Shown one piece after another: positions 22,419 to 37,472 of a DNA stretch of 64,000 bases (the first letter of the stretch is position 1; every line of letters begins with the position of its first letter). Location: NCBI RefSeq assembly GCF_003991425.1, contig NZ_CP034346.1:2641501-2705500 (forward strand), read 5' to 3'. The stretch is from Paenibacillus lutimineralis. Its GTDB lineage: Bacteria > Bacillota > Bacilli > Paenibacillales > Paenibacillaceae. A program made the translations under genes and the position numbers. The notes beneath the pieces were generated by a model. It had not been told where the DNA came from and did not search any database. It worked only from the letters and a program-made list of their open reading frames with translations.

Positions 22419-23262
22419 GATTAAAGTCGGCGGACATTTCAGCATTCGTTACGGATATTCCGGTGCTGCAAAGACGGCGCTGCAGATGGGAGCAGGGACT
22501 TTTCAGTATTTTCCCAAGAATCCAAGAGGTCTGTCGGTAAAGTCTTTCGATGCACGAGATGCTGAGACTTGCCGCCAGCTTTGTCTCACAAATCATATCG
22601 TGTCAGTGGCACATACGCCCTACCCGAGCAATTTGGCCGCTGACCCAGGTAATGGGGATGGACTATTCCAAAGGGTGGTAGAATCGCTGCGGAACGATCT
22701 AGAAATCGCCGAAGCATGCGGTTCTATCGGAATAGTAGTTCATTTTGGTACAAATAAGGCTGGAAACCCCTTACAAAGTTATCAAAATATTATACAATGT
22801 ATAAATAAAGTGCTTGCAAATTGGCAAGGCCAGGCCAAGCTGCTCATCGAGAACCAGGCTGGGGATCACGGGGACATGGGAATGACGCTGGAAGAGATGG
22901 TTCAGATTCGCAAATTATGCGATTCTCCGCAGCAGATTGGGTTCTGCCTTGATACCTGTCACGCCTTTGCTGCGGGAATGTGGATGGGAGAGAACGATGA
23001 TGAATTTGCGGCTAAGGCACAGCGGCTTGGGTACTGGGAAGCTCTCTCGGTCGTTCACCTGAATGATTCCAGGTACCCGCTTCATTCTCGCAAGGACCGC
23101 CATGCCAGAGTCGGGCAAGGATATATAGGAGAATCAGGTTTCAGACGGTTACTGCAGATGGATGTTATCCGGCATGTGCCGTTTATTTTAGAGACCGCTA
23201 CTGGAGCAGATGGAACGTATAGAGAGGATATGGAGCTGATAAGACGGTGGGCGGAGAGCTAG
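22408..23262 (+). CDS. Endonuclease IV family AP endonuclease
   Basis: 284 residues, TIM-barrel with three-metal site. Recognisable motifs: GGHFSIRYGY, VVHFGTNKAG, LLIENQAGDHGDMG, GFCLDTCHAFAAG and VVHLNDSRYPLHSRKDRHAR. It cuts 5' of abasic sites. The start overlaps the glycosylase by 11 bases, so translation is coupled: glycosylase makes the abasic site and this enzyme processes it. VVHFG replaces the more common V-H-P-G, a modest deviation. nfo-like; whether it is the only copy cannot be seen. Confidence 0.88.
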   Translation: MIDEIKVGGHFSIRYGYSGAAKTALQMGAGTFQYFPKNPRGLSVKSFDARDAETCRQLCLTNHIVSVAHTPYPSNLAADPGNGDGLFQRVVESLRNDLEIAEACGSIGIVVHFGTNKAGNPLQSYQNIIQCINKVLANWQGQAKLLIENQAGDHGDMGMTLEEMVQIRKLCDSPQQIGFCLDTCHAFAAGMWMGENDDEFAAKAQRLGYWEALSVVHLNDSRYPLHSRKDRHARVGQGYIGESGFRRLLQMDVIRHVPFILETATGADGTYREDMELIRRWAES

Positions 23263-23293
23263 TGCTGGAATAACAGCGGAAAGGAAGAATAAC

Positions 23294-23647
23294 GTGATTC
23301 ATGTATATATGGACGACTTTCGACGATGTCCAAAAGGGTTTACATTAGCGCGCTCAGTAGAAGAATGCATTGAGCTGCTGCGATTGACTGAAGTTGATAT
23401 TTTATCGCTGGATCATGATATGGGCCCAGATGAGAAAACCGGTACCGAAGTGGCGGTTGCTATCGCTAGGGAGGGTCTGTATCCCCGTGAAATCTATTTA
23501 CACACTTCAAGTATGTGCGGCAAGAAGAGCATGTACGAAATTTTGTATCAAAATAAACCGGAGCACGTCGTACTGCATAACTGCCCGATTCCGTTCGAGC
23601 GTCTGGACGCTATTGCGCGTCAGGAAGAACAGCGTGCTGGAAAGTAA
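23294..23647 (+). CDS. Cyclic-phosphate processing receiver-like (cREC) protein
   Basis: 117 residues with the small receiver-like fold: HVYMDDFRRCPKGFTLARSV, EVDILSLDHDMGPDEKTGTE, then LYPREIYLHTSSMCGKKSMY. The DD and LDHDMG acids match the cREC group, described by comparative genomics as receiver-derived domains possibly acting on cyclic-phosphate ends. GTG start with AAGGAAG upstream. It lies between endonuclease IV and an rRNA-methyltransferase-like gene, a nucleic-acid maintenance setting. Activity is untested. Confidence 0.72.
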   Translation: MIHVYMDDFRRCPKGFTLARSVEECIELLRLTEVDILSLDHDMGPDEKTGTEVAVAIAREGLYPREIYLHTSSMCGKKSMYEILYQNKPEHVVLHNCPIPFERLDAIARQEEQRAGK

Positions 23648-23662
23648 GAGAGGTTGCACAAC

Positions 23663-24736
23663 TTGAATATTCACATACAAGATAATACAGATGAGGCGCA
23701 GACCATTACATCGGCACGATATGTGTGTACAGCGAATCATGGATTTGCTCCGTATGCTCAAGAGGAGCTGCGTAGATTATTTGGCTCGGTTAAGAGTACC
23801 GTACTTGTGCCTGGAGAGGTGCTGCTGGTTACTCTACCACAAGAGCCACAAGAAATTGAGAGACAGTTTGCTGACGTGCAGCCGCTATTTTTGCGTCATA
23901 TGTTTCCGGTAGGTTGGCAATGGACGATTAACGAAGAGAATTCAGGCCAAGCCTGGGAGAATGGATTTGTTCAATATCTTTTGGATGATGAGCGGTTAAA
24001 AGGAGCAAGGGTCGCTATTCAGCCACGGAAATCGGAGAGTGCATTATGGCAGGAAAGTGCTGTATCACTCAAAGACATGCTTCAGACGCGGCTGGATGAA
24101 CTCGGAGCTGAGTTTGTGGTAAGAGATGCCGATTGGATCATATCCGTATTCATCAGCAAGGATCAAGTCCTGGCAGGAATCTCTACGCCGCGACAGAATT
24201 TATCTGACTGGAATGGCGGAGCGATCCGATTCCAGCGTGAGGAAGGCCAGATTTCACGGGCGAAGTTCAAGCTGCTGGAAGCAGAATCGGTCTTTGATAT
24301 TAACTTTTCGGCTTTTCATGAAGCGCTTGATATCGGGGCTGCTCCGGGAGGCTGGTCTTCGTTCCTGTTGGAGCGAGGCCTTAAGGTAACGGCGGTTGAT
24401 CCGGCGAAAATGCATCCATCGATATTGGCTTCACCCCAGCTGACTCATATCCGTAAAAATGCAGACAGCGTTAAATTCCGCGATGGAGAGTTCGATTTGC
24501 TCGTATGCGACATGAGTTGGAATCCGAAGCAGACGGCCAAAATGGTTATCGATTTGCTGTATGCACTCGTTCCGGGCGGAACGGCAGTCGTTACTGTTAA
24601 GCTGATGAGTAAGAAGCCAATGGCGCTTATTCAGGAAGTTATATCACTGTTTGAGGCGGCGCAGATGCAGGTTCAGCGTGCAAAACAGCTGTTCCATAAC
24701 CGTGATGAAATTACGATATATATGATTAAATATTAA
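23663..24736 (+). CDS. RlmM-like SAM-dependent RNA methyltransferase
   Basis: 357 residues. An N-terminal THUMP-like part (SARYVCTANHGFAPYAQEEL) is followed by a Rossmann methyltransferase domain with the SAM motif ALDIGAAPGGWSSFLLERG, the acid in VTAVDPAKMHP and the FtsJ-like catalytic region LLVCDMSWNPKQ. Lys in VTVKLMSKK fits the K-D-K-E type 2'-O-methyltransferases such as RlmM, which modifies 23S rRNA. TTG 23663 has GAGAGG 9 bases upstream and is preferred over TTG 23654. The target in this organism is inferred. Confidence 0.82.
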   Translation: MNIHIQDNTDEAQTITSARYVCTANHGFAPYAQEELRRLFGSVKSTVLVPGEVLLVTLPQEPQEIERQFADVQPLFLRHMFPVGWQWTINEENSGQAWENGFVQYLLDDERLKGARVAIQPRKSESALWQESAVSLKDMLQTRLDELGAEFVVRDADWIISVFISKDQVLAGISTPRQNLSDWNGGAIRFQREEGQISRAKFKLLEAESVFDINFSAFHEALDIGAAPGGWSSFLLERGLKVTAVDPAKMHPSILASPQLTHIRKNADSVKFRDGEFDLLVCDMSWNPKQTAKMVIDLLYALVPGGTAVVTVKLMSKKPMALIQEVISLFEAAQMQVQRAKQLFHNRDEITIYMIKY

Positions 24737-24779
24737 TGCAATGAATTAATTCTTTTTAAAGTTCCTCTAAAAAAAGAGC

Positions 24780-24807
24780 TTTACTTCTTGTGAGTTTATG
24801 CTATACT
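24780..24807 (+). promoter_or_regulatory. Putative promoter of the kinase/Tad-like operon
   Basis: TTTACT (24780-24785), 16 bases, TATACT (24802-24807). A start near 24814 would give a leader of about 100 bases containing the hairpin at 24836-24896. No better promoter lies between that hairpin and the first gene. Confidence 0.5.
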
Positions 24808-24835
24808 GATTCCAAAATTATACATTAATAACAAT

Positions 24836-24897
24836 AGGGAAAGCATCCCGTTTAGTCTCGGTTAATCTGAGCTGAACTTGATTGCTTTCCCTTTTTG
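24836..24897 (+). promoter_or_regulatory. Leader hairpin with terminator-like end (candidate attenuator)
   Basis: AGGGAAAGCA (24836-24845) pairs perfectly with TGCTTTCCCT (24883-24892), then TTTTTG. Inside, GTTTAG pairs with CTGAAC and CTCGG with CTGAG around a TTAAT loop, so nearly the whole 57 bases fold into one long hairpin. The ribosome site of the kinase gene (AAAGGAGG, 24906 region) follows at once. It could instead only terminate the upstream methyltransferase gene, but then the operon would lack a promoter. Confidence 0.6.
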
Positions 24898-24918
24898 TGT
24901 TGCAAAGGAGGTTATCGC

Positions 24919-26436
24919 TTGTCGCATATCGCGATGCTTGCTGAAGGGGATGTTATAGCAGGACGATACCGGATCGAGCACTTGATCGGACAGGGTGGCA
25001 TGAGCCATGTGTATCTAGCTGGGGATTTGAAGCTTCCAGGGAAGCTGTGGGCGATCAAGGAGATGACGGCTCGTATGCCAAGAGAGCTGCAATTGGAGGA
25101 AGAAGCCGCCCTTTTGATCGCGATGAATCACCATCGCCTGCCGCGGATCGTCGATTTCTGGTCCAGTGATTCGGAAGGCCGTTCTTATCTTGTCATGGAC
25201 TACATTGAAGGGGTTCATCTTGACCAGCATGTGCGAAGGCTAGGCCGAAGCTTCAAGCTGGAAATGCTGATCGGGATTGGAGTACAGATTTGCGAAGGCT
25301 TGCATTATCTGCACAGTCGCAAACCGCCGATTATTCATCGCGATCTGAAGCCCTCGAATCTGTTGATTGACGGTAAGGGCGAGATCCGCTTTGTTGATTT
25401 CGGCATTGCCCGCAAATTTAGGCCCGATGGACTTGAGGATACGATTAAGCTGGGGACGATTGGATTTGCGGCCCCAGAGCAATATGGCGGTCGTCAGAGC
25501 GATGGAAGGGCAGATTTGTATTCTTTGGGTGCGGTATTGCTATATTTGGGAACTCATTGCAAGTATACGGAATTCACGACAGAGGCCATGAATCTGCTTG
25601 CTAAGAATGGATTTTCTAGGCTTGCTCCTACTATTGAGAAATTGCTGCATAGCTTCCCAGAGGAGCGTTTCCAGACTGCGCAGGAAGCGGGTGCTGCGTT
25701 AGCCAAGCTGCTCGAGCGTCCACAAGCTGGTGGTGTTAGAGTCAGGAACAAAGTGAGGGCGGAGGAGGCAGGGGAAGTTGTCCCTGGCCGTTCTATCGTT
25801 ATCGCTGTGATGGGGGCAGGTCCGGGAGTCGGGGCGACGCATACAGCGGTTTCACTAGCTCATTCGTTGGCCAGATATTCCCGAAGAGTCGCTGTACTGG
25901 AGCTTGATCCCCGGGCAACGGCGTTCGAACGGATTTTCCACAGACTGGGGGCGGAAGGGAGGCATTCCAGGCAGCTACCCAATCGACGTGCCCGTATGGA
26001 AGGAGTTGATTATATAAGAACCAGCTCACGCGTTGAGATGCTTGATCTATTCGCAGAGGACTATACCTATCTCATTTGTGATCTGGGTTCCAGCAGACGC
26101 AAGGATCTGCTTGAGGAATTTGTTAGGGCGGATCTGGCGATTCTGGTAGGCTCAGCTGTTGCATGGAGGGTCGATGAATTGGAGCTGTTCTCCACCGATG
26201 CTCCGGGTCAGATCAAGCGATCGCCGGTATACTGCCTTCCGCTTGCGACAGGAACAGACGTTAGCAGGCTGCAGAAATCATTGGATACGAAGCAGGTCTT
26301 TACTCTGCCAGCTGAGAGTAATCCGTTCGTTCCTGGACAGGCCATGGAGATGGCACTGCTACAGGCATGCAGTGAAGTACTGCCTCAAGGCATTCGTCCG
26401 GTCAAACGTGGATTCTGGCTATCGAGTAAAAAGTAA
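24919..26436 (+). CDS. Ser/Thr protein kinase fused to MinD/ParA-like domain
   Basis: 505 residues, no membrane helix seen. The N-terminal Hanks kinase looks active: IGQGGMSHVY loop, AIKEM lysine, HRDLKPSNLL catalytic loop, VDFGIA metal site and GTIGFAAPEQYGG activation segment. From about residue 290 a MinD/CpaE-like domain follows (VIAVMGAGPGVGATHTAVSL, VAVLELDPR), in which the Walker A is deviant, GPGVGATHT without the usual lysine. TTG 24919 has AAAGGAGG 7 bases upstream. First gene of a ten-gene co-directional operon with Tad-like genes. Kinase control over a pilus-like machine is inferred from the fusion and context. Confidence 0.82.
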   Translation: MSHIAMLAEGDVIAGRYRIEHLIGQGGMSHVYLAGDLKLPGKLWAIKEMTARMPRELQLEEEAALLIAMNHHRLPRIVDFWSSDSEGRSYLVMDYIEGVHLDQHVRRLGRSFKLEMLIGIGVQICEGLHYLHSRKPPIIHRDLKPSNLLIDGKGEIRFVDFGIARKFRPDGLEDTIKLGTIGFAAPEQYGGRQSDGRADLYSLGAVLLYLGTHCKYTEFTTEAMNLLAKNGFSRLAPTIEKLLHSFPEERFQTAQEAGAALAKLLERPQAGGVRVRNKVRAEEAGEVVPGRSIVIAVMGAGPGVGATHTAVSLAHSLARYSRRVAVLELDPRATAFERIFHRLGAEGRHSRQLPNRRARMEGVDYIRTSSRVEMLDLFAEDYTYLICDLGSSRRKDLLEEFVRADLAILVGSAVAWRVDELELFSTDAPGQIKRSPVYCLPLATGTDVSRLQKSLDTKQVFTLPAESNPFVPGQAMEMALLQACSEVLPQGIRPVKRGFWLSSKK

Positions 26437-26458
26437 TAAAGAGGAAGTGAGAATGTAG

Positions 26459-27352
26459 ATGATTAGAAAACGAACAAGGCAAGTTATTTATGCTGGCATT
26501 GTCGGTGCGGGAATCGTCGGAGTTGCCTTTGCAGGGTATGCTATCCATGCTTCCAGCCAATTGGAGCAGATGCGGATATCTATCGCGAAGCAGTATGAGG
26601 ACGAAATATCGGCCTTAAAGCAGGCTTCGGGTGCTGTTGTCACCGGCTGGACTTTATCACGGGAAATCCCCGCAGGGGAACGCATTACGAGACAGGATCT
26701 GGCTTCGATTGACCTGCCCGTGAACAGCGTTCCGGGCGATTGGTTAAAGGCCTCTGAAGATATCATCGGCAAGGCCGCCAAAATTACGGTCGCACCTAAT
26801 ACCCTACTTACCGGCTCCTTGTTATTTGAGGAGGGGGCAGTCTCTGACGATCTTCGTTATCGCGAGATGGGTTTCATCCAACTGCCAGGTGAATTGGAGC
26901 AGAAGGATGTCGTCGATATTCGGATTCAGTTCCCAACCGGACAGGATTACATCCTGCTGTCCAAGAAGCGGGTTGAATCACTCGCCCCAGGTGTAGTGAC
27001 ATCGACCCTCAATGAAGAGGAGATTCTGCTGTTGTCCAGCGGGATCGTCGACGCTTATTTACATAAAGCCTCTATTTATGCCCTTAAGTATGTGGAGCCG
27101 TATCTACAGCGGGAAGCGATACCGACGTATCCGCCGAGCGATGCGGTGCTTCAGGTGATCCGCAAGGATCCGAACATCATAGATATGGCGGAGCACGCTC
27201 TAACTGCTTCGATAAGAGCAGGTCTGGAAGGAGATTTGGCATTGGTGACGTCGCAGCGAGCGGCTGAATTTATGAGTCAGAAATCTTCTTCTACATCCGT
27301 TCGCACCTCACAAGAGCGGAGCGATTCATTTGTGCTCGATGCTGGGAAGTAA
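26459..27352 (+). CDS. SAF-domain membrane protein, CpaB/RcpC-like
   Basis: 297 residues. An N-terminal membrane helix (YAGIVGAGIVGVAFAGYAI) and coiled segment are followed by a SAF domain, VVTGWTLSREIPAGERITRQ then DLASIDLPVNSVPGDW. This is the layout of CpaB/RcpC, which in Gram-negative Tad systems assists the outer pore. No secretin exists here, so a wall-binding or scaffold role is likelier. The C-terminal half is family-specific and unrecognised. It lies 22 bases behind the kinase gene with GAGGAAG upstream. Confidence 0.75.
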   Translation: MIRKRTRQVIYAGIVGAGIVGVAFAGYAIHASSQLEQMRISIAKQYEDEISALKQASGAVVTGWTLSREIPAGERITRQDLASIDLPVNSVPGDWLKASEDIIGKAAKITVAPNTLLTGSLLFEEGAVSDDLRYREMGFIQLPGELEQKDVVDIRIQFPTGQDYILLSKKRVESLAPGVVTSTLNEEEILLLSSGIVDAYLHKASIYALKYVEPYLQREAIPTYPPSDAVLQVIRKDPNIIDMAEHALTASIRAGLEGDLALVTSQRAAEFMSQKSSSTSVRTSQERSDSFVLDAGK

Positions 27353-27409
27353 TAGACACCAGTAATCGGTTGAATTGATGGGATATCCAGGTCTATAGGA
27401 GGGGATCGG

Positions 27410-28126
27410 ATGAAACGTTGGTTATTTGCCGGGGTGAGTGATAAGCGGGAGCTTATTCTCTACATATGCAAGCTGCTCACTGCGGCCGGACAGCGTGTGT
27501 TACTTGTAGATCGAACGGTTGAGAGTAAATATCAATATCTTGCCCGCAATAGGGAGGGGGTTTTACCACTAATTGAGTTCTGTGGCTTCGATATCACAAA
27601 TGGAGAGCTAGAAGCTTCGGAAGAAGGAACAGGATTGCCGGAAGCCATCCATATTAATGCCGAGAGTTATGATTATTTATTGTATGATTATGAGCTGGAT
27701 CAGCCAAAGGCGGAAGGACTCTGCTCACAAATGGATCAGATTATATGGGTGACTACTTTTGATCATTATGAGGTGGAACGAAGTGCTGACTGGTTCAGAC
27801 AATGGCTTCGCTCGGATCCTATACTAGCGGGAGTCCTTGTTCATCCTGTTCTGATAAGAACGGTAGAGAGTTACCTAACCGCAAATTACATGATGAGTCT
27901 GACAGAGGATTTACCGATAGAGTGGAATACAGACGTAGCGTGCATTCCCTGGAATGAGCTTAATACAGCCATCCATTATGAGAACGGGCATGAGCATATG
28001 CTTCATATTCATAGAATCACCCGCTCTTATAGAAGAGCCCTGATCTCTCTAACCGTACAGTTGACCGGATGGACAAGAAGCGAAGCAAAAAGGGCAATGC
28101 GCAGTGCAAGAAGGAGGGCCATATGA
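27410..28126 (+). CDS. ParA/MinD-like protein without P-loop (CpaE-like)
   Basis: 238 residues, soluble. The N-terminus MKRWLFAGVSDKRELILYIC plus LLTAAGQRVLLVDRT reads as the first strand, helix and second strand of a MinD fold in which the Walker A loop is replaced by VSDKREL. DYLLYDYELDQP and IIWVTTFDHYEVE fit the later strands. CpaE-type proteins position Tad machinery; a nucleotide-free variant could be a scaffold. ATAGGAGG lies upstream. Its stop overlaps the next start (ATGA). The fold assignment is by inspection only. Confidence 0.5.
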   Translation: MKRWLFAGVSDKRELILYICKLLTAAGQRVLLVDRTVESKYQYLARNREGVLPLIEFCGFDITNGELEASEEGTGLPEAIHINAESYDYLLYDYELDQPKAEGLCSQMDQIIWVTTFDHYEVERSADWFRQWLRSDPILAGVLVHPVLIRTVESYLTANYMMSLTEDLPIEWNTDVACIPWNELNTAIHYENGHEHMLHIHRITRSYRRALISLTVQLTGWTRSEAKRAMRSARRRAI

Positions 28127-28947
28127 GTCGAATTGTTGTTTGGGATTACGGTTATAACGGTGCTGCGGATATTGCTGCCGCCATAGCCATTGTTACTTCG
28201 CTCTACCAGAGGCGGCGCATACTGGTGATTAATGAAGATGATATAGGGCAGGGAGTAGAGCAGGGTTTTCCTGTATATGACGAAATAGCTGTTAGAGATG
28301 GCTCAAAGATTACAGAGACAGGGACGGAAGCCCTACTGCGGCTACTTATGAATCGGCGCTTATCGCGGTATAACTTCGCGGACTATACTAGACCGCTGAT
28401 TAACAGCCGTCTTGACCTCATCCCTGGTGCAAGGGGAGGGCTGGGCAAGCAGGCAGACGTTGCGCTGCAGCAGCTATATGCAGTTGCAGAGGATGTATAT
28501 GAACTTGTATTCCTGCATCGGAGAGGCATAACGCTGCCTGTTGCCGAAACGGAGGAGGCGCTGCTGCTACCTGTACTGCAACAGAATCGAACCGAACTGG
28601 ACCAATTTTTTGCATATTACCGTTCTTGCTCTGAGGTAGCAAAGAACAAGGTAAAAGGCATCATCCTCCGCCATTACGATCGCCAGGCCAAATGGAATAT
28701 TGCGAATATCAAACGGTATTATGGCTGTGAAATTCCTCTGCATGGCATCGCTTATGATACCGGGTTCGCTGATGCTTGGAATGAACATGACCTGCTCCGG
28801 TATTTCCGCCGAATACAGCTGCCTGGCCGAATGGGGACAAAGCGCGGGACCCTGCTGGAAGCTCTGCAGCAGATTGGTGGCGCAATGGCCGCTGCGTCAG
28901 ACAGATATATGCCTCCGTCATCGCTATCTGATGATAAGGGGGCCTAG
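28123..28947 (+). CDS. Second ParA/MinD-like protein without P-loop
   Basis: 274 residues. It starts MSRIVVWDYGYNGAADIAAA, where a ParA would show the KGG-GKT loop, and continues IAIVTSLYQRRRILVINEDD. KNKVKGIILRHYDRQAKW and CEIPLHGIAYDTGFADAWNE match the late ParA strands (V-K-G-I-I-x-N and the I-P-Y-D-x-x-F-x-x-A segment). ATG 28123 overlaps the previous stop and has GGAGGG just upstream. Two such proteins plus the kinase's C-terminal domain make three MinD-like folds in one operon. Function unknown; a membrane or positioning scaffold is inferred. Confidence 0.55.
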   Translation: MSRIVVWDYGYNGAADIAAAIAIVTSLYQRRRILVINEDDIGQGVEQGFPVYDEIAVRDGSKITETGTEALLRLLMNRRLSRYNFADYTRPLINSRLDLIPGARGGLGKQADVALQQLYAVAEDVYELVFLHRRGITLPVAETEEALLLPVLQQNRTELDQFFAYYRSCSEVAKNKVKGIILRHYDRQAKWNIANIKRYYGCEIPLHGIAYDTGFADAWNEHDLLRYFRRIQLPGRMGTKRGTLLEALQQIGGAMAAASDRYMPPSSLSDDKGA

Positions 28948-28949
28948 CA

Positions 28950-30791
28950 ATGGATCGACTTACGAACGGGATTGGGATTGCTTTGATCATGCTTCTGGCG
29001 CTCCTTCTTGTCTGGCTTAGGGCCAGAGCGGTGTCTGAACATAAATTTACGAGCAAGGTGACCCATGAACGCTATAGCTTGCCCGATCTTATCGCCTATG
29101 TGAAGTTTCAGCTGCATGAATTAAGCCGCAACAAGATCAATCAGTGGGGGATGGGAGAGGAGACCTGGGCCCGTAAAGTGAAAGCGAGAACAGAATTGCG
29201 CCAGGCGCTGCGGGGATGTACTTATGGGGACCGTAGCGACAAGCGATTCGTTCAATCTTATATCCGCGATTTGCTGCTTGAAGGATACGGGGTTACGGAG
29301 GAGAGCATCGAGCATATTATTCCTTTTCATCAGCCCGCCAGGCTGACGCACCAGGATCGGTTCGAGATCATTTTCTATCTTTATCGCCAAAGATACGGTG
29401 ATGATGCGCTGTCGGTTCTGATTGAGGAATACGAACTCGACGAACCGAAGCAGACGAACGAAGAAGAGGAGGGATATATGTACGAAATTAGCGTCGAGGA
29501 TATCGATTATTGCTTCGGTAGGGAATACAGACAGCTAAGCTTCGAAGAGAAGCTGGATATCATTGTCCAGCGCATCTATCAGTCGTATAAGGGTTTCTCT
29601 GTAGTCGACAGTATACTTGAGCAGCGAATCGACGGAGTAAGCGGCGGAGTAAGTGGAATATCCGAATCGGTTCAGTTTGGTAATGAGCTGGGCGATGTTA
29701 ACAGAGCCGGGTTTGGAACTGTTCCTAGTGCTCCATTGGACGAAGATGGGCGAGAAGTCTCCCAGGTATGGGAGAGTGTATGGATATTTTATAAAGGCAA
29801 GAGCATTAGACTTCCTTTCTTATCCTTCGGCAGCGAGTTCGAGCTCAGGAGGATCTGTCAAAATATATATAAATACAATTTGCCAGGTCAATTGTCAGAG
29901 GCCAGCGGATTTAAGGTGAACGATATGAAGGATGGTTCCCGGGTCGTCGTTGTCCGGCCTCCGTTTGCAGAGACATGGGCCTTCTTCGTTCGTAAATTCG
30001 ATACCCAGGGAGCGGCGCTCGAGCAATTAATACAGGGCCATGGCGCAGAAATTCCTATTCAGCTTCTGAAATATTTAATGAAGGGTAGTCGAATCACTTC
30101 AATTACGGGGTCACAGGGCTCAGGCAAAACGACGCTGTTAATGGCGCTGGTTAAACACATCTATGCGTCTTACACACTGCGTGTTCAGGAGATGTCCTTC
30201 GAGTTGAATCTGCGGAAGCTGTATAGTGCTAGAAATATACTCAGTTTCCGGGAGACGGAATATGTAAGTGGACAAGCAGGCCTTGACTTGCAGAAGAAGA
30301 CAGACGGGACGGTGCATATTCTTGGTGAGGTAGCTTCGGATGAGGTCGCTTCCTGGATGATTCAAATGGCACAGGTGGCTAGTCTCTTTACCGTCTTCAC
30401 ACATCATGCCAAGACCTTCCCTGATCTGGTCGATTCTTTACGGAACTCATTATTGAAGACGGGAGTCTTCCGGGATGAACGGGTTGCCGAACTACAGGTC
30501 GCCGGGGTTATCGACTTTGACATCCATTTGCGCAGAGATATTCATGGCAATCGCTATATCGAAAGGATTACTGAGTGCAGCCGCCGGAGTGATGGCGAAG
30601 CAGATATATTTACCGGGGAGCGAACCTATCAGGCGAGGACGATTGTCGAATATATCGATGGTGGATACCGGATCGTTCAACCGATAACGGATTGTTGCCG
30701 TAATGAAATGCAGCGTGAGATGCTACCGGAAGATGCCCTCCGTTTCGAGCAATTTCTGTCTCAGTATTGGGGGGAGCAGATTGGAGCTTAA
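28950..30791 (+). CDS. TadA/CpaF-type secretion ATPase with N-terminal membrane helix
   Basis: 613 residues. An N-terminal helix (IGIALIMLLALLLVWLRARA) anchors it, which is unusual for CpaF. A long poorly conserved region follows, then the ATPase core: Walker A TGSQGSGKTTLL (about residues 385-396), an Asp-box-like ILGEVASDEVASWMIQMAQV and a His-box-like FTVFTHHAKTFPDLVDSLRN. GEVASDE matches the GE-R/x-x-E motif of the family. The enzyme should power assembly of the pilin-like proteins encoded downstream. The next gene overlaps its end by 11 bases. Confidence 0.85.
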   Translation: MDRLTNGIGIALIMLLALLLVWLRARAVSEHKFTSKVTHERYSLPDLIAYVKFQLHELSRNKINQWGMGEETWARKVKARTELRQALRGCTYGDRSDKRFVQSYIRDLLLEGYGVTEESIEHIIPFHQPARLTHQDRFEIIFYLYRQRYGDDALSVLIEEYELDEPKQTNEEEEGYMYEISVEDIDYCFGREYRQLSFEEKLDIIVQRIYQSYKGFSVVDSILEQRIDGVSGGVSGISESVQFGNELGDVNRAGFGTVPSAPLDEDGREVSQVWESVWIFYKGKSIRLPFLSFGSEFELRRICQNIYKYNLPGQLSEASGFKVNDMKDGSRVVVVRPPFAETWAFFVRKFDTQGAALEQLIQGHGAEIPIQLLKYLMKGSRITSITGSQGSGKTTLLMALVKHIYASYTLRVQEMSFELNLRKLYSARNILSFRETEYVSGQAGLDLQKKTDGTVHILGEVASDEVASWMIQMAQVASLFTVFTHHAKTFPDLVDSLRNSLLKTGVFRDERVAELQVAGVIDFDIHLRRDIHGNRYIERITECSRRSDGEADIFTGERTYQARTIVEYIDGGYRIVQPITDCCRNEMQREMLPEDALRFEQFLSQYWGEQIGA

Positions 30792-32880
30792 ATCGGTCTT
30801 GTTGTGGATCGCATTTATATCATTTCTATTATTTGGCGGCGTTTATTTGATCGCTTTAGAGATTCGCAGGCGTGAAGAGAAGAAGGCAGGAGAGCTCGGA
30901 GTAGCAATGGATACAGCGGCTGCAGCGCCAGGATTCTTGTCCAGATTGAAGTCAGTCGTGGCGACTTTACTGTTACGATCCTATGCCATATCGATGAAAG
31001 TGCCGCCCTTGAGGTTATATGTGCTTAAGGTTCGTGGTCGTATTTCGCTGCTGAAGACATCGGATGAATTCGAATTAAGGCGCCAGACGATGAAGCTTGT
31101 ATATTTGCTACTGGGTATATCCGGGATGGCGATTGTCTCGTTGACTTTGATGCATCCGAACGTGCTGTTCTTTCTCACTGTCATAATTACCGTTGCCGTT
31201 ATTCATGGGCTCATGCTCGAAGGTTATGTAGGAAGGCTGGAGAAGAAGTTGCTGCTGCAAATGCTGCAGTGGTTCACTGCAGTTAGACATGCCTATCATG
31301 CTCATGAAATGGTTGCGGATGCGATCGATGAGGCGAATGAGAGCTCGAGTGAGGAAATCGTCAGACATGGGGAGAGGATCTATGACGCCCTGACTTCAGC
31401 TGAACCGGATAAGGAGCTTGATCGCTATTATGAGACGGCGCCGAATCGCTTCTTGAAGGGATTTGCTTCGATCTCCCGGCTGATCATGGAATACGGAGAC
31501 CGCAAGGATGAACAGCAGGGGTCGCTATATTTGCGCGGGATCTCCAGCCTGACCGGGGAGATTCAGCTTGAGCTGATGCGTAGGAATAAGCTTGACTATT
31601 TGCTAAAAGGGCTCAGCTTAATTGCATTAGCTCCTATTCTCTTCACGAAGCCGATCGAACTTTGGGCACGGCGGAATTTTCCGCTGATGGATCAGTTTTA
31701 TTTGAGCAAGCTCGGAATCTCTATTCATATCGGCCTATTTATTATTATATTGCTCAGCTACATCCTTCTGCAGAAATTAAAAAGTGAGGAAGCTACAGCC
31801 TATCGCGCCGACTCCGATATTTCCTCTTGGGAGGCGAAGGCCTATCGCTCGAAGGTAGTAAGAATGATTGTGGGCTGGTTCTGTCCACCACCTGGATCAA
31901 TTCGTTATGATCATATCGCCGAACTACTTAAGGAGACGAATCAGAACCTGCGTGTTGAATTGCTGCAGGTAAGACGAATCGCTATTTTTGTTGGATGTCT
32001 GTTCGTCGTAGTGTGCTCGATTAGCTGGACGCATTGGAAGAGTAAGGAATGGATTATCGCTGAGCCGCCAACAAGCTACGTATTTCTTGGCTCCCTCTCG
32101 AAAGAAGAAGCGAAGGATGCCAGAGAGATGGTTGAGCTGGACCGGCAGGTCCTGCGGAGTTCAGGGATGTCCGTAGCGGCAGATGATGAAGCTATAGTGC
32201 CAATCGTTACTTCGGCAGCGAAGGAGATCGGTCTGAAGCTGGACGAAGGCAAGACGACTGCGATTACGCAGCGTATCATGGACAAGCTGGATCGCTATCA
32301 AGCCGAATATTGGAAATGGTGGGAGGTCATGCTTTCCCTTATATTGTCCATGCTCGGATATTACAGTCCGATCTGGACGCTTCGATTCCAGCGCAGATTA
32401 AGGCTGACAGATATGAGACATGAGGTGTACCAGTTCCAGACGATGATTATGATTTTAAGAGAGTTCGAACGTATCTCGGTGGAAGCAATATTGGAATGGT
32501 TGTACAGCTATGCCGTTATTTTTAAAGCTCCGATTGAGAAATGCTTATCTCATTACAGTGCAGGGGCTCAAGAGGCTCTTCTGGGATTGAAGGATGAGAC
32601 TGCGTTGGAGGAGTTCCAACGTTTGATCGAGCACTTGATTCAGGCAGAAGAGAAAATACCGATTAAAAAAGCGTTTGATGACCTACAGAGTGAGATGGGC
32701 TTTCAGTTTGAGCGAAGACGGCTAGATTATGAGAAGGATTTGGATATGAAGGCCGAAATGGGCCGAATGATCGGTTTTGTGCCGATGTATTCACTGATTT
32801 TTGCTTATTTAGTCATTCCGCTAATTTGGATGAGTTTCAAACAGATGGATATCTATTTTCAACAAATTCAAAATTTATAG
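30781..32880 (+). CDS. Large TadB/TadC-like membrane protein (probable fusion)
   Basis: 699 residues, about twice the length of TadB or TadC. Two halves each look T2SSF-like: membrane pairs near residues 10-30, 110-155 and 270-330, then again about 400-425, 515-535 and the C-terminal helix (YSLIFAYLVIPLIWMSF). Cytoplasmic helices with ELRRQTMKLVYLLLGISG and RHAYHAHEMVADAIDEA lie between. TadB and TadC together form the inner-membrane platform; here one chain may do both. TTG 30781 has GGGGGAG 5 bases upstream and overlaps the ATPase gene. Membrane positions are estimates from hydrophobicity by eye. Confidence 0.68.
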   Translation: MELKSVLLWIAFISFLLFGGVYLIALEIRRREEKKAGELGVAMDTAAAAPGFLSRLKSVVATLLLRSYAISMKVPPLRLYVLKVRGRISLLKTSDEFELRRQTMKLVYLLLGISGMAIVSLTLMHPNVLFFLTVIITVAVIHGLMLEGYVGRLEKKLLLQMLQWFTAVRHAYHAHEMVADAIDEANESSSEEIVRHGERIYDALTSAEPDKELDRYYETAPNRFLKGFASISRLIMEYGDRKDEQQGSLYLRGISSLTGEIQLELMRRNKLDYLLKGLSLIALAPILFTKPIELWARRNFPLMDQFYLSKLGISIHIGLFIIILLSYILLQKLKSEEATAYRADSDISSWEAKAYRSKVVRMIVGWFCPPPGSIRYDHIAELLKETNQNLRVELLQVRRIAIFVGCLFVVVCSISWTHWKSKEWIIAEPPTSYVFLGSLSKEEAKDAREMVELDRQVLRSSGMSVAADDEAIVPIVTSAAKEIGLKLDEGKTTAITQRIMDKLDRYQAEYWKWWEVMLSLILSMLGYYSPIWTLRFQRRLRLTDMRHEVYQFQTMIMILREFERISVEAILEWLYSYAVIFKAPIEKCLSHYSAGAQEALLGLKDETALEEFQRLIEHLIQAEEKIPIKKAFDDLQSEMGFQFERRRLDYEKDLDMKAEMGRMIGFVPMYSLIFAYLVIPLIWMSFKQMDIYFQQIQNL

Positions 32881-32917
32881 AGGTTTTGAACCTATATTTA
32901 TTAGGAGGAATTAAAGT

Positions 32918-33403
32918 ATGAATAACGCTTCATCCGCATTAAAAGTAGCGGCAGGAATCTTCCTGACGATCGCATTGATTACGATTGTCGTTGTCTTGTT
33001 CGTCTCGGCGCAAGAGGCAACGAAGACGGCGCAGAACAATTTCTCCGACATTCAGACAGAGCTGTCGCAGGCCTCTTTTACAGTATACGATGATACGACG
33101 GTTAGCGGTTCACAGGTAACGAATGCGCTTCGTAAATTTAAGGAACGCGACCAATTCGGGATTCAGGTGCTTACCGGTAAGAACCGCCAAGGGGAATGGT
33201 ACGGCAATACTCTAAATATTACCGGCAATGCTGATGATTTTGGTTCTGTTATTAATAGGAGCAATGCAGACATTAGCAACTCATGGAATGAGAAATTAAA
33301 TGAATATGTGAACCCGAGCGGGAAGTTTAAGGCCCGGGTTGTTAAGGATAATTCCAATGTCGTGCGCGGCTTGATCTTTACGCAGACGACAGTGACCCCT
33401 TAA
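32918..33403 (+). CDS. Pilin-like protein 1 (major candidate)
   Basis: 161 residues. The N-terminal hydrophobic helix (KVAAGIFLTIALITIVVVLF) is followed by an amphipathic stretch (EATKTAQNNFSDIQTELSQA) and the motif TVYDDTTVSGSQVTNALRKF, typical of short proteins in Firmicutes Tad-like operons. The classic prepilin cleavage pattern G-x4-E is absent. AGGAGG is well placed, the strongest ribosome site in the operon's distal part, consistent with a high-copy subunit. The stop shares one base with the next ATG. Confidence 0.68.
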   Translation: MNNASSALKVAAGIFLTIALITIVVVLFVSAQEATKTAQNNFSDIQTELSQASFTVYDDTTVSGSQVTNALRKFKERDQFGIQVLTGKNRQGEWYGNTLNITGNADDFGSVINRSNADISNSWNEKLNEYVNPSGKFKARVVKDNSNVVRGLIFTQTTVTP

Positions 33404-33819
33404 TGTTCAGTACGCTCAAAGATTTGATGTGGCTGCTCTGTTCCACGGTACTGTGCATGGGTGCACTTATATATACTTTGGATCACAGCGAGCGACAAGC
33501 TCTGGTATTGGCAGGGGTGGTTCCCTTTATTCAGAATCAGAAGGTCAGTGTAAATATGCAGACCTGGGCGAATCAAGAGAAACGTACGCAAGACACTTAC
33601 TCCGGAGCACAGGTTTTATACGGTCTGGTAGATTGGCTAGATCATGGGGTCCACCTTCAGGTTGAAGATATCTCCATCTCAGAGACGGACGACATCTCTT
33701 CTTTATTGCTGACTGTCATTAAGCTAGACCGCAGTTATTCCTATGATGCCGAATATGATGACATGGGGAAACTGCGGAGACTTTCCTTTTACAGTGTTAC
33801 AGGAGGCGTTGCTCCATGA
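33403..33819 (+). CDS. Pilin-like protein 2
   Basis: 138 residues: N-terminal hydrophobic helix (LLCSTVLCMGALIYTL) and an external domain containing TYSGAQVLYGLVDWL, which parallels TTVSGSQVTNALRKF of pilin-like protein 1. The two are probably distant paralogues. The start overlaps the upstream stop and the end overlaps the next ATG (ATGA). Role as minor pilin inferred from context. Confidence 0.6.
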   Translation: MFSTLKDLMWLLCSTVLCMGALIYTLDHSERQALVLAGVVPFIQNQKVSVNMQTWANQEKRTQDTYSGAQVLYGLVDWLDHGVHLQVEDISISETDDISSLLLTVIKLDRSYSYDAEYDDMGKLRRLSFYSVTGGVAP

Positions 33820-34367
33820 GTAATCCGCTGTCCAAAATAGTTGCGGCGCTGCTAGTAGTTGCCCTCATCGTACTTTTTCCGGCGGTTCAGTCCGCTGAGC
33901 GAGCAGAAAATATTTCAGTATTGACCACGTACAATACGATGGTTCAGTTTACGGATGCCGTGCGAAATAAAGGTTACTTGTCTGCTGGCATGTTTGAAGA
34001 CTTCGTGCGTGAGCTGGCTGTTTCCGGCCAGGTCTATGAGGTGGAGCTGGAGCACAGACATAAGAAATATCATCCTGAATATGATGATCCAGCTGATAGT
34101 AGCACGTTCCAGGAACAATTCAGTGTAATCTATGATTCATACTATACGGAAGAACTGCTTGGTCGGTTATTTTCTAATACGGGGGCGATTGGTGATACTG
34201 ATAGGTTGTACAAGCTGGAAACAGGCGATTTCTTCTCGGTTGCTCTGACGAGGCGTTCGGTATCTCTATATCAAGTGCTAGCTGGATTCCTGCAGGCCTC
34301 TTCCACGGCTGGGAGAGGACCACAGACGATGTATTATGGAGGGATGGTTCTGAATGAAGATTACTGA
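33816..34367 (+). CDS. Pilin-like protein 3
   Basis: 183 residues: N-terminal helix (KIVAALLVVALIVLFPAVQS), then an external domain with TMVQFTDAVRNKGYLSAGMF and QVYEVELEHRHKKYHPEYDD. This V-R-x-K-G-Y-x-S pattern recurs in small proteins of Firmicutes Tad-like loci as I recall them. AGGAGG is 9 bases upstream. The next gene begins 14 bases before its stop. Confidence 0.58.
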   Translation: MSNPLSKIVAALLVVALIVLFPAVQSAERAENISVLTTYNTMVQFTDAVRNKGYLSAGMFEDFVRELAVSGQVYEVELEHRHKKYHPEYDDPADSSTFQEQFSVIYDSYYTEELLGRLFSNTGAIGDTDRLYKLETGDFFSVALTRRSVSLYQVLAGFLQASSTAGRGPQTMYYGGMVLNEDY

Positions 34368-35334
34368 TTGGGCCATCATCTTTGTATTAATCGTCGGTCC
34401 ATTTCTCAGGGCGTTATCTCTGTATTCCACGGATTTGCAGGAGGTCAATCGCCTGCAAATCCGCTATACTACTGCGCTTCGCACGGCGGTACAGGATGCG
34501 GGAAACGTGTTGAACCGCAATGAACTTCAGCAATTCGAGATGGGCTACGACTCGAACAAATATATGCGGGCAGATAAAGAACTGGCTCTGTCCGTCCTTC
34601 TACAGTCGCTCGCGATCAACTTTGGTATAGCAGAAGATTCGCTAGCTCAAGCCGCATTTATGAAATATATTCCCGCGATTGTAGTCATCGATTATGATGG
34701 CTATTGGATTTATGCACTGGATGAATTCAGCAGTGCAAATGGAGAGCCCAGGCTGGAACATCGCTGGCACCCGAAGAAGCCTTACGTATACACGGATGGC
34801 TCTAGGAACAGTGTCGATTTTACACTGGATTCTTATATTAGGGTTATTTCTTCAACCACTGGTGAGGAGGTGCGGGGATTGTTAGAAGATCTTGCTCCTG
34901 TAACTGCCGTGCCGCTGCTGCAGGATGCGGAAGTATTCGATCAAGTAAGACGTTCCACCATCGTGCGCCAGATCGAAGAGGATTTGCAGCAAGTGATCGC
35001 TGTACATAATGAATTTACCGCCCGATTAGGCTTTACTTACACCTTCACGTTACCGACGATCCCTCAGGAGGAGTGGAATAATACATTGGACGATGTCGGA
35101 ATTATTGCCTTTCTACAGGGGATTCCCGTAGGGAATCATTACTATAACAACTTTGCTCTCGGTGGCGGTAGGCTGCGAAAAGCGGAAAGGATTGAAGGCG
35201 GAGTCGATCCGGCAACGGGTATCAGGTACTATTATTTCCCAAAGTGCGAGCTTCCCTACAATACCGAGGAAGTGTTCGCCCGCAAACGGGAAGCGGCAGC
35301 ACGGGGTTATTATGAAGCGATTTGCAGGCCATAA
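34354..35334 (+). CDS. Membrane-anchored protein ending the Tad-like operon
   Basis: 326 residues: short helix (WAIIFVLIVGPFLRALSLYS) followed by a large extracytoplasmic domain (YTTALRTAVQDAGNVLNRNE, FTLPTIPQEEWNNTLDDVGI, YYYFPKCELPYN). Family not recognised. Position last in the operon and the helix-then-domain layout suggest a tip or adaptor subunit. GGAGGG lies about 10 bases upstream; it overlaps the preceding gene by 14 bases. A terminator follows directly. Confidence 0.6.
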   Translation: MKITDWAIIFVLIVGPFLRALSLYSTDLQEVNRLQIRYTTALRTAVQDAGNVLNRNELQQFEMGYDSNKYMRADKELALSVLLQSLAINFGIAEDSLAQAAFMKYIPAIVVIDYDGYWIYALDEFSSANGEPRLEHRWHPKKPYVYTDGSRNSVDFTLDSYIRVISSTTGEEVRGLLEDLAPVTAVPLLQDAEVFDQVRRSTIVRQIEEDLQQVIAVHNEFTARLGFTYTFTLPTIPQEEWNNTLDDVGIIAFLQGIPVGNHYYNNFALGGGRLRKAERIEGGVDPATGIRYYYFPKCELPYNTEEVFARKREAAARGYYEAICRP

Positions 35335-35338
35335 TAGA

Positions 35339-35375
35339 ACAGGCGCCACTCTGATAAGAGTGTGCGCCTGTTTGT
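35339..35375 (+). terminator. Terminator of the Tad-like operon
   Basis: ACAGGCGC...ACTCT pairs with AGAGT...GCGCCTGT around GATA, then TTTGTGT. It lies between convergent genes and would also serve the SDR gene. Confidence 0.85.
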
Positions 35376-35388
35376 GTAGTATGCTATG

Positions 35389-36138
35389 TTATTTAAAAGA
35401 AGCATATCCTTCATCGGCCATAACGACGCTGCCGTTAATAGCGCTTGCGTTCGGTGTGGAGAGAAGGTATACGGTATCCGCGATTTGTTCAGGCATAGTC
35501 AGCTTATTGCCCATTACTTTGGACTTCATTGCATCAACTAAGCCTTGATCCTTATAGCCTTGAATAATTGGTGTATCTACGGCACCTGGAGCTACAGCAA
35601 CAACGCGGATGCCATGAGGAGAGAGTTCAAGAGCTGCAGATTTCGTCATCATAATGACAGCGCCCTTGCTGGCATGATAGGCGAAGGTTCCTGGAGAAGC
35701 CAGAAATCCGAATACAGAAGCGGTATTGATAATGACGCCGTGGATTCCCATTTCTCTCATCTTCTTGCCAGCGGCGATAATCCCGTGGGCCACCCCATGT
35801 TGGTTTACGTTAATAACGGCATGGTAGTCTTCCAGCTTCTGATCCAGAACAGGGGTCAGACGGCCGATTCCGGCGTTATTGAACATCACGTCAATCCGGC
35901 CATAGGTTTTAACGGCTTGGTCAACTAGAGCTTCGACATCTTCATATTTCGATACATCGGTTTTAACGCAAATAGCTTCTCCGCCATTTGCCTTGATCTG
36001 ATCGACGACGGCTTGTCCGGCTTGTTCGTTAAAGTCAGCAACGACGACGCGATCTCCTTCAGCGGCGAACTTCAATGCGGTTGATTTGCCGATTCCACTT
36101 GCACTACCTGTAATAACTGCTACTCTCTTAGTATCCAT
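35389..36138 (-). CDS. Short-chain dehydrogenase/reductase
   Basis: 249 residues, classical SDR. Cofactor loop TGSASGIGKS; acidic end of strand two (VVVADFNE) suggests NAD(H); FNNAGIG; active-site Ser in IINTASVFGF and YHASK. The C-terminus has the quinone/ketoreductase-like LSTPNASAINGSVVMADEGY. Substrate unknown. AGGTGGAG upstream of the ATG. It is divergent from the LysR gene at 36399, a possible regulator. Confidence 0.87.
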   Translation of the reverse strand: MDTKRVAVITGSASGIGKSTALKFAAEGDRVVVADFNEQAGQAVVDQIKANGGEAICVKTDVSKYEDVEALVDQAVKTYGRIDVMFNNAGIGRLTPVLDQKLEDYHAVINVNQHGVAHGIIAAGKKMREMGIHGVIINTASVFGFLASPGTFAYHASKGAVIMMTKSAALELSPHGIRVVAVAPGAVDTPIIQGYKDQGLVDAMKSKVMGNKLTMPEQIADTVYLLSTPNASAINGSVVMADEGYASFK

Positions 36139-36254
36139 ATGAAAACTCCACCTTTCTTGAAGTTGTAATTTATCTTCGAGCTCATTGTAACAAATGTCAT
36201 TGTTTAATAAAATTTATATATATTTATCTGCAATTAAATATTACTTAACAATCT

Positions 36255-36376
36255 CGTTATCAGCGTAGCTGATGAAATTCTATATCGCAAGAAAACCTAC
36301 TTCTGGATCGCGGTCGCTCATCCATGTATTGGCCTCGATTGGTTTTCTTATAAAAGCGGACTTTTTGACTACCACT
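36255..36376 (+). repeat. Family-2 intergenic repeat, copy F (left end missing)
   Basis: Shares GATGAAATTCTATATCGCAA (with small changes), AAGAAAACCTAC, TCGCGGTCGCTC and the GGACTTTTTGA end with copy E at 21371. The left third is absent. AAGAAAACC (36289-36297) pairs with GGTTTTCTT (36341-36349). It sits between the divergent SDR and LysR genes, so it may overlap their promoters. Confidence 0.72.
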
Positions 36377-36398
36377 AATTGTGAGAGGCGGGTTGTAA

Positions 36399-37280
36399 AT
36401 GAATCTGGAGCAGCTGGAGTATATCGTGGATGTGGCTAAGACGAAATCGCTGACCAAGACGGCGCAGCATGCGCATGTTACTTTGTCTGCTGTCAGTCAA
36501 TCCATTTCTATGCTTGAGTCTGAACTGGATGTCGTACTGTTCCATCGTTCTCGCGGAATCGGAGCGGTTCCAACAGCTGAGGGGCAGGCACTGATAGAGA
36601 TTGCTGGCGAAATCATGAACCTTGTGAAGCGTCTGAAAGAGGAAGCAGGCAATTATAGTGAGCGATTAAGCGGGGAATTGTTCATTGGGACCATTCCTGG
36701 ACCCATGCACTTGCTGATGGAGTTGATCGCGGATTTCAAGATTGATTATCCAGATGTGAAGATACAGATCATTGAGAAGGGGCCGAAGGATATTCTTGAT
36801 GAGCTGCACAACAGTCAGATCGATATCGGATTCATCGCGCTGAATGAGAAGCAGATCAATCAGACCAAGACGCTGCGTTTCGAACGAACCTTTACGGGCA
36901 AGATGGTTGTCGGAGTTAGATCCGATTCCCCATTGGCTCTGCGCAAGTCCATTCATCCGCGGGAATTGCTGAAATATACGCTCGTATTGTACGACGACGA
37001 ATATATCAGATCTTACATCACGGAGTTCGTGGCCAAGTTCGGGGAGCTTGATGTTTTGTTCATTTCTAACAATGTTCCGGCAATTCAGAAGGCCGTATTA
37101 GGCGGTCTAGCGCTTACAGTTGGTCTGGATTACTCATTCAACCATCAAGAGCTACCTGATAATATTGTACCGATTGAGCTGGAGAATCATTATCCGGTCT
37201 ATTATGGCTGGGTAAGCTCTACTCAGAATCAGACCAATCCGATTATTAAGCGATTCATCCAACGGTTGAAGCATGTTTGA
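36399..37280 (+). CDS. LysR-family transcriptional regulator
   Basis: 293 residues. N-terminal helix-turn-helix (MNLEQLEYIVDVAKTKSLTK, then AHVTLSAVSQSISMLESEL) and a two-lobed periplasmic-protein-like effector domain (ELFIGTIPGPMHLLMELIAD onward). These regulators commonly control a divergent neighbour, here the SDR gene. GAGAGGCGGG lies upstream of the ATG. Effector unknown. Confidence 0.9.
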   Translation: MNLEQLEYIVDVAKTKSLTKTAQHAHVTLSAVSQSISMLESELDVVLFHRSRGIGAVPTAEGQALIEIAGEIMNLVKRLKEEAGNYSERLSGELFIGTIPGPMHLLMELIADFKIDYPDVKIQIIEKGPKDILDELHNSQIDIGFIALNEKQINQTKTLRFERTFTGKMVVGVRSDSPLALRKSIHPRELLKYTLVLYDDEYIRSYITEFVAKFGELDVLFISNNVPAIQKAVLGGLALTVGLDYSFNHQELPDNIVPIELENHYPVYYGWVSSTQNQTNPIIKRFIQRLKHV

Positions 37281-37374
37281 TGTAGAACGATTTCCGTCGG
37301 ACTATTTCGATATAACATTGCATGAATTGCTAGGTTACGAACGACGGTTTGTTATGCTACAATAAATTCTTGAA

Positions 37375-37390
37375 TGTCCGCAATCGGACA
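37375..37390 (+). promoter_or_regulatory. Small hairpin and short leader frames before the ABC-F gene
   Basis: TGTCCG (37375-37380) and CGGACA (37385-37390) form a hairpin behind a possible promoter (TTACGA, 17 bases, TACAAT). The leader holds two short frames, MKNDILRATLD and one starting MNYMIKGLF that overlaps the yfmM start in another frame. ABC-F genes are often controlled by leader translation, so these are worth noting. Confidence 0.35.
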
Positions 37391-37472
37391 GATACCATGA
37401 AGAATGATATTTTACGGGCAACACTGGATTAAATAATAATGAATTATATGATAAAGGGGTTATTTAGTTTCT

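Follow-up and report, generated by a model that had tools for sequence, protein, structure and literature searches.

In a 64-kb stretch of the Paenibacillus lutimineralis genome (C1:2641501-2705500 of a single 6.5 Mb contig; 'the window' below means this whole stretch) we characterized an operon of ten plus-strand open reading frames (ORFs), g1 to g10, at 24919-35334. The operon probably encodes a machine of the monoderm cell envelope that was derived from the Tad pilus system and whose subunits carry no leader; that it works like Tad is the best reading. That the machine builds an actual filament may be so, and we hold this with some doubt. The genes encode a fusion of a kinase with a CpaE/MinD-like domain, a SAF/CpaB protein, two degenerate ParA-like proteins, a CpaF-like ATPase, a double platform protein and four proteins with a single transmembrane (TM) helix. 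The points that set the operon apart most strongly are the leaderless subunits, the fused platform, the tethered ATPase and the two degenerate ParA-like proteins; the locus having neither a secretin nor a peptidase is a weaker one.

All ten genes are co-directional, and neighbours overlap or lie no more than 57 bases apart, as the first-pass annotation of this DNA had described. The distances are 22 bases for g1-g2, 57 for g2-g3, 2 for g4-g5 and 37 for g6-g7; overlaps are of 4 bases (g3/g4), 11 (g5/g6), 1 (g7/g8), 4 (g8/g9) and 14 (g9/g10).

Tad-type components of the operon

CpaB/RcpC and CpaE/TadZ proteins belong to Tad systems generally. Profile searches and comparisons support a kinship to Tad of the ATPase, the CpaB-like protein, the CpaE-like domain and the platform. 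For g5 we observed matches to T2SSE of Pfam (E-value 1.8e-4) and to the TadA-family ATPase of NCBIfam (2.2e-9), below the Pfam and the curated cut-off, respectively; its ATPase part matched CpaF chains with E-value 1.3e-8. The CpaF/TadA component of Tad is present, in agreement with the early description of g5. Among 50 full-length homologues of g5, Walker A was found in 49, and the Walker B Glu and the THHA/SHHA box in all. A hydropathy window placed a hydrophobic helix at the N-terminus of each of the 50, whereas the two CpaF proteins of the same genome are without one.

In profile comparison the N half of g6 scored 94 with TadB and the C-terminal part 96.6 with TadC, with controls reaching up to 47.6. 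The protein thus looks like a TadB-TadC fusion, the double-length protein of the first-pass annotation, and the TadB and TadC parts of the Tad platform would both be present in fused form. T2SSF of Pfam was not reached by g6 or by any of 26 family members, and Foldseek gave no direct match for g6 at E-value 0.001. One platform branch (P0097-P0122, assigned to Clostridia by nearest loci) carries ∼90 extra residues in the middle loop.

The CpaB/RcpC component was recognized in g2 (SAF of Pfam, 4.4e-7; pilus_cpaB of NCBIfam, 2.6e-8, below the curated cut-off), which agrees with its first description. In Pseudomonas aeruginosa RcpC is described as a dodecameric conduit of the Tad pilus, according to the accessible part of PMC12307814. 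A TadZ/CpaE-type component is present in g1, with weak matches to models under their cut-offs (CpaE_hom_Actino of NCBIfam, 1.5e-6, below the curated cut-off; CbiA of Pfam, 4.7e-5, below the Pfam cut-off). The rest of g1 is a complete Hanks-type kinase (Pkinase, 3e-36), so that a Ser/Thr kinase-MinD fusion does head the operon. The hits to g1 in PADLOC are kinase models, and a role of the kinase as a defence system was discarded.

No Pfam domain was found up to E-value 1 in g3, g4, g8 and g9, and for g3 and g4 no family was found in Pfam or NCBIfam. Comparison with the Soj/ParA profile gave a probability of 93 per cent for g3 and 91 per cent for g4, against at most 0.9 for reversed or unrelated profiles; with single ParA and CpaE sequences from the T7SSg-like locus described below the two scored just 0.1 to 29. 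A canonical Walker A was found in 0 of 57 homologues of g3 and, with a loose regular expression, in 2 of 58 of g4, and in 41 of the 57 the motif G..DKx[DE] occupies the position of the ParA GGVGKT. Hence the term 'P-loop-less' was right for g3 and nearly so for g4.

Single-TM proteins without recognizable leader

The predicted structure of g7 (predicted local distance difference test score 86.5) has a helix at residues 2-55 followed by a beta sheet; the alpha1 helix of type IV pilins is about as long. There is nothing apparent for a prepilin peptidase to cut from g7, because the helix starts among its first residues. A class III leader was found in 0 of 96 members of the g7 family, 1 of 103 of the g8 family (an overlapping set), 0 of 60 of g9 and 3 of 61 of g10, where the matches may stem from an over-long ORF start. 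The same test detected the leader in all three positive controls, the Flp-like pilin and two type IV (T4) pilins of the same genome. By these counts g7-g10 are without a recognizable prepilin leader.

With HHalign, g7 and g8 scored 95 at full length and 8.8 after removal of the first 40 residues. The two are likely, but not certain, paralogues; a likeness due merely to a shared TM helix was set aside. In two loci (L075 and L076) g7 is doubled. Many members of the g7 family (P0244-P0363) carry the public name 'ABC transporter permease', probably a propagated misannotation, which obscures the family.

Comparison with Tad pili

A classic Tad locus is present elsewhere in the genome (L082, C1:4930000-4948000), with CpaF, TadB, TadC, a Flp-like pilin (by eye) and a peptidase, and the operon is indeed distinct from it, as had been proposed. 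The two have in common a CpaF-type ATPase and a TadB/TadC-type platform. Unlike L082, the operon has no Flp pilin that we could find, no recognizable prepilin leader and no peptidase at the locus; its platform is fused, its ATPase has an N-terminal helix, its CpaE-like protein bears a kinase, and there are two additional degenerate ParA-like proteins. Tad proper includes a Flp pilin with a class III leader, which the operon lacks, and it is on Flp, leader and peptidase that membership in Tad proper fails.

The first-pass annotation had stressed that secretin and prepilin peptidase are missing. No secretin was found among the ten operon proteins, the part of the genome searched for it, and no TadV-type prepilin peptidase at the operon locus; both statements stand, yet neither tells much. 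Absence of a secretin is expected in a monoderm, as stated in the accessible text of Denise et al. 2019 (PMC6668835), and was dropped as a sign of novelty. The locus lacking a peptidase is weak evidence because the genome has A24 peptidase matches elsewhere, two only, both outside the operon. The idea that genomes with the system have no peptidase was refuted by A24 matches in 20 of 20 Clostridia genomes.

The operon also differs from the SpoIIIA channel of sporulation by its CpaB/CpaE-type partners and fused platform. In open-licence PMC literature we found no account that describes the operon as free of a T7SS (type VII secretion system), headed by a kinase or leaderless. The accessible part of a study of Paenibacillus sp. 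NAIST15-1 (PMC5072692) reports pili-related genes at two loci, one of which might be the present operon, with no pilin identified, and deletions with no motility defect.

Conservation and ancestry

Gene order, a check that the first-pass annotation had proposed, proved conserved. We hand-picked 39 Paenibacillales loci from ATPase hits, leaving out a duplicate 1-kb piece (L077). Chance grouping of g2-g10 is excluded, since their order is identical in all 39. Irregularities were an in-frame stop in g5 (L061), a split g4 (L073), masked bases in g10 (L081) and an additional g4-like gene after g1 (L072). In 20 loci from metagenome-assembled genomes of Clostridia, several from rumen, the order from g2 on is kept. 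Sixteen are complete, with g2-g6, at least one g7/g8-like gene, g9 and g10; of the others, L104 has no match to g10, and L097, L101 and L108 run into the end of their contigs. LXG-like (by eye) repeated proteins of 340-420 residues lie upstream of Clostridia copies (L098:2676-4977, L111); the one scanned had no Pfam match. When 398 genomes of the phylum were surveyed with the platform profile, six gave a match: five were strong, all from the window's family and including the window's genome, and one was weak (8.1e-5).

The head genes of the 39 loci are a kinase-CpaE fusion in 24 and another CpaE-like gene in nine (L062-L066, L073-L076); six have no recognized operon head. The N-terminal parts of the nine look receiver-like by eye; Pfam showed no receiver domain in the two such heads scanned. 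Among the 20 Clostridia loci no kinase head was found in the flanks examined, some of them short. In a tree of g5 and g6 from 60 loci, inferred by one method (FastTree), 11 receiver-like-headed or headless copies and four copies linked to T7SSh-like genes nest within the kinase-headed ones. The kinase head is likely the ancestral state in Paenibacillales, because copies with other heads or none branch inside the kinase-headed ones.

Kinase-MinD fusion and its stand-alone copies

In the alignment of 25 kinase-headed copies, including the window's, the catalytic Lys, the Asp of HRD, the Asn, the Asp of DFG and the Glu of APE of the kinase were kept in all 25, and both signature lysines of the P-loop of the second domain were lost in all 25. 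The alignment was used instead of a strict regular expression for the kinase motifs, which matched 10 of 33 head genes.

A search with g1 of 296 Paenibacillales genomes gave at least 150 matches, listed down to E-value 1.2e-80. In 97 of the 150 listed genomes the operon ATPase lies within 5 kb of the fusion, and in 53 it does not. Thirty of these 53, from a single genus, have no ATPase match better than 8e-15, the match level of generic CpaF, anywhere (hand count); in the remaining 23 the operon ATPase is non-adjacent or not among the matches listed. Seven of the 30, chosen by the leader motif described below, were read and show the fusion alone with its own leader between RlmM-like and ABC-F genes. 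These stand-alone loci (L182-L185, L188, L199 and L200) share leader and synteny with the window and have no machine genes. Another genome (G221) keeps homologues of g1 and g4 only and resembles a decayed operon. The kinase-MinD protein probably has a use apart from the machine, because the fusion persists without the operon ATPase in the 30 genomes and in the remnant. The epithet 'kinase-controlled' is thus at best partly apt: it may suit the 24 kinase-headed Paenibacillales loci, but does not extend to the 15 in which the kinase is replaced or missing or to the Clostridia loci, where no kinase head was found in the flanks examined, and the fusion persisting without the operon ATPase in 30 genomes also tells against it.

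Links to type VII secretion and surface proteins

According to the accessible text of Garrett and Palmer 2024 (PMC11217815), T7SSg and T7SSh loci always stand beside 'Tad pilus genes', for a reason left open there. One branch of the operon family (L073-L076) adjoins T7SSh-like genes (EssC-like, WXG100) and shares the ten-gene order of the window operon. The label T7SSh-like was set by gene content, the T7SSh sequences of Garrett and Palmer being outside the comparison. Loci so labelled and having a paralogous operon are L073-L076 and L202-L204. In one genome (G067) Pfam confirmed FtsK_SpoIIIE, WXG100, YukD and a kinase domain, with no Pfam match for an EspG-like ORF. By eye, EssC- and WXG100-like ORFs were recognized in G256 and G211, a YukD-like one in G211 only, and in L076 the start of an EssC-like ORF only. 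The full set of EssC, WXG100 and YukD beside the operon was seen for L075/L202 and is absent beside the window copy. The window copy has a kinase head and no T7SS neighbour, whereas the T7SSh-like copies have a head without kinase and with a C-terminal TM helix (two checked), and no leader motif. A GGDEF-like membrane protein lies upstream in L075 (7.6e-4, below the cut-off).

The window's genome has a T7SSg-like locus (L083, C1:1388000-1406000) with EssC- and beta-propeller-like ORFs by eye. It resembles the operon, mostly by eye, in having CpaE-, CpaB-, ParA-, CpaF-, TadB- and TadC-like genes and two leaderless single-TM proteins, and differs in that TadB and TadC are separate, CpaF has no N-terminal helix and no homologues of g3, g4 or g7-g10 were recognized.

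Surface or secreted proteins follow several operons: Cu_amine_oxidN1 proteins in L063, L067 (by eye) and L204, and SLH-repeat proteins in L058, L060 and L202, with Pfam confirmation for L060 only. It is possible that they are cargo or decoration.

Leader of the operon

A promoter-like sequence, a 14-base motif and a terminator-like hairpin precede g1. The claims made here for the leader rest on conservation, because the promoter scan returned eight promoter-like sites, fewer than shuffled sequences (mean 15.8), and the terminator scan does not list the leader hairpin, which exceeds its loop limit. GGGAAAGYATCC precedes g1 in the window and likewise in 23 of the 24 fetched kinase-headed relatives (the exception is L071). 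The leader motif was found in none of the 15 other Paenibacillales loci and none of the 20 from Clostridia; four of the latter stop short of the region upstream of the operon. In 23 of the 24 motif-bearing leaders (the exception is L081) the motif makes up the base of a long hairpin, the end of which is a T-run. Between species the motif is 97 per cent identical, while identity is 27 per cent, near chance, over the following 20 bases, which are still largely paired. Alternatively the motif could fold on itself (GGGA-AAGYA-UCCC, -5 kcal/mol). The leader with its motif-based, terminator-like hairpin is a candidate new cis-regulatory RNA, possibly an attenuator in which an alternative hairpin would act as anti-terminator.

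The exact 14-mer is present in 151 of 296 Paenibacillales genomes against 29 hits of the reversed pattern (hand count), and 109 of the 121 checked listed sites are no more than 400 bases away from one of the listed kinase fusion genes. Rfam had no match to the leader; a known riboswitch was rejected after no match up to E-value 1 appeared across 20000-40000, except an unrelated one at 37788. A genome-wide regulon was rejected too: the window's genome has a single exact copy and five copies with one mismatch, where the reversed pattern gave two. Hits of the motif in seven genomes of another family (G063, G206, G114, G120, G199, G027 and G072), and both hits in G293, turned out on reading to be unrelated.

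Possible mechanism and alternative explanations

The machine might work as follows. A membrane-tethered CpaF-like hexamer of g5 would drive the fused TadB-TadC platform g6. By extracting or stacking the single-TM subunits g7/g8, the platform would make a short filament or pseudopilus, in which g9 and g10 would be minor subunits, tip subunits or anchors. Assembly of g7/g8 would proceed without a prepilin peptidase, and the filament or pseudopilus would pass through a ring of the SAF/CpaB protein g2. The MinD-like trio (the C-terminal domain of g1, g3 and g4) would place and gate the machine, the kinase of g1 would set its activity in kinase-headed copies, and the leader attenuator would gate transcription. 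A bolder reading, which we hold to be somewhat less likely than not, is a separate line of filament machines within monoderm Bacillota, ranging from Clostridia to Paenibacillales, that would make type IV filament-like polymers of leaderless subunits and so do without prepilin peptidase; in Paenibacillales a kinase-MinD switch and its own attenuator RNA would have been added, and T7SSh systems would have taken over one branch.

Several observations weigh against pilin-like subunits and a leaderless machine. The g7 model had no significant match among solved structures with Foldseek or VIA, so that direct proof of a pilin fold failed. Profiles of g7, g9 and g10 gave no link to the genome's own Flp-like, TadE-like or T4 pilins (HHalign score of g7 with the Flp-like pilin, 6.6), the TadE-like proteins of L082 being compared as single sequences. 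The leader test requires Glu at +5, and an unusual leader could escape it. Of the broad features of type IV filaments, the operon has an ATPase and a platform; the helix-and-sheet topology of g7 had no significant match in PDB. Pilin identity of g7-g10 is not proven, and of the 'four pilin-like proteins' first described the single TM helices and the topology of g7 stood while the pilin folds went unconfirmed.

SpoIIIAF, SpoIIIAG and SpoIIIAH are membrane-anchored ring proteins. In a similar way g7-g10 could be membrane-anchored ring proteins of a static or ring-forming secretion conduit with a type II secretion-like ATPase and platform, exporting surface proteins or, in paralogous operons, serving the T7SS next to them. 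Uncleaved single-TM subunits and the absence of a peptidase would suit such a complex, SpoIIIAB (row 6bs9) ranks near the top of the VIA rows of g6, and paralogous operons adjoin EssC-like, WXG100 and YukD genes or secreted SLH or Cu-amine-oxidase-N1 proteins. However, the CpaB- and CpaE-like partners and the fused platform indicate Tad, the g7 helix of 54 residues matches pilin alpha1 in length, g7 is duplicated in the two loci named above and Clostridia have several g7/g8-like genes; no ring-building fold appeared in the structure-search rows of g7, though these are no test of a ring. We consider the conduit unlikely. Less probable still is an ordinary monoderm Tad locus that borrows a prepilin peptidase: although two A24 peptidases are encoded elsewhere and the accessible text of PMC6668835 describes such sharing in further type IV filament systems, g7-g10 offer no recognizable class III leader to cut, no link to Flp or TadE was found, the platform is fused, the ATPase has its N-terminal helix, and the genome already has a classic Tad locus; a search of 79 genomes of the order matched its TadC in 78.

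The kinase-MinD protein might instead be an independent envelope or cell-cycle regulator that shares the promoter and neither controls nor places the machine. The stand-alone copies with the same leader speak for this, as do the Paenibacillales loci without a kinase head and the Clostridia flanks; yet the ATPase gene of the machine lies close to most of the listed fusions, and nine of the 15 non-kinase loci carry another CpaE-like head. We regard such independence as somewhat unlikely, and keep a Tad-derived machine with leaderless subunits as the preferred reading.

In type IV filament assembly, cleavage of the leader by a prepilin peptidase counts as a defining step. If the preferred reading is true, a widespread leaderless Tad-derived machine would let the need for this step be tested, and the operon would be a different route for Gram-positive bacteria to a surface device. 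The system can also be approached through its conserved leader RNA and through the kinase-MinD protein in its stand-alone form. As to why 'Tad' genes stand beside T7SSh, the question in the accessible text of Garrett and Palmer 2024 (PMC11217815), the T7SSh-like copy is one branch among mostly free-standing operons.

Features and neighbouring genes

Table 1. Coordinates of the operon genes and of sequence features in the window
Feature	Position	Strand	Description
Promoter-like sequence	24780..24824	+	TTTACT-16-TATACT (24780-24807), then ATTCCAAAATTATACA; kept in leaders of most kinase-headed relatives
Leader motif	24836..24849	+	AGGGAAAGCATCCC; sole exact copy in genome; near-invariant in kinase-headed relatives
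Leader hairpin	24836..24896	+	Terminator-like, ending in T-run; minimum free energy -29.4, z -6.8; upstream of g1
g1	24919..26436	+	Hanks-type Ser/Thr kinase and CpaE/MinD-like domain with degenerate P-loop GAGPGVGATHT
g2	26459..27352	+	N-terminal hydrophobic helix (by eye) and SAF domain; CpaB/RcpC-like
g3	27410..28126	+	Degenerate ParA/MinD-like, without canonical Walker A
g4	28123..28947	+	Second degenerate ParA/MinD-like protein
g5	28950..30791	+	CpaF/TadA-like ATPase, N-terminal hydrophobic helix
g6	30781..32880	+	TTG start; TadB-like and TadC-like fused platform
g7	32918..33403	+	Leaderless pilin-like; predicted helix 2-55 and beta sheet
g8	33403..33819	+	Single N-terminal TM helix; probable g7 paralogue
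g9	33816..34367	+	Single N-terminal TM helix; no fold assigned; kept into Clostridia
g10	34354..35334	+	Single N-terminal TM helix and large, putatively extracytoplasmic part
Inverted repeat	35338..35375	.	Possible terminator, by eye; between g10 and convergent SDR gene

The start of g1 is a TTG after AAAGGAGG; the mechanical ORF starts at 24895. The shared terminator proposed early on corresponds to the inverted repeat behind g10, which is there by eye, is poor in its T-run and is absent from the list of the terminator scan. As a possible operon terminator it rests on inspection, because the scan lists neither this hairpin nor that of the leader. By eye, the genes around the operon in the window are an RlmM-like gene, the SDR gene, a LysR-like gene and an ABC-F gene.

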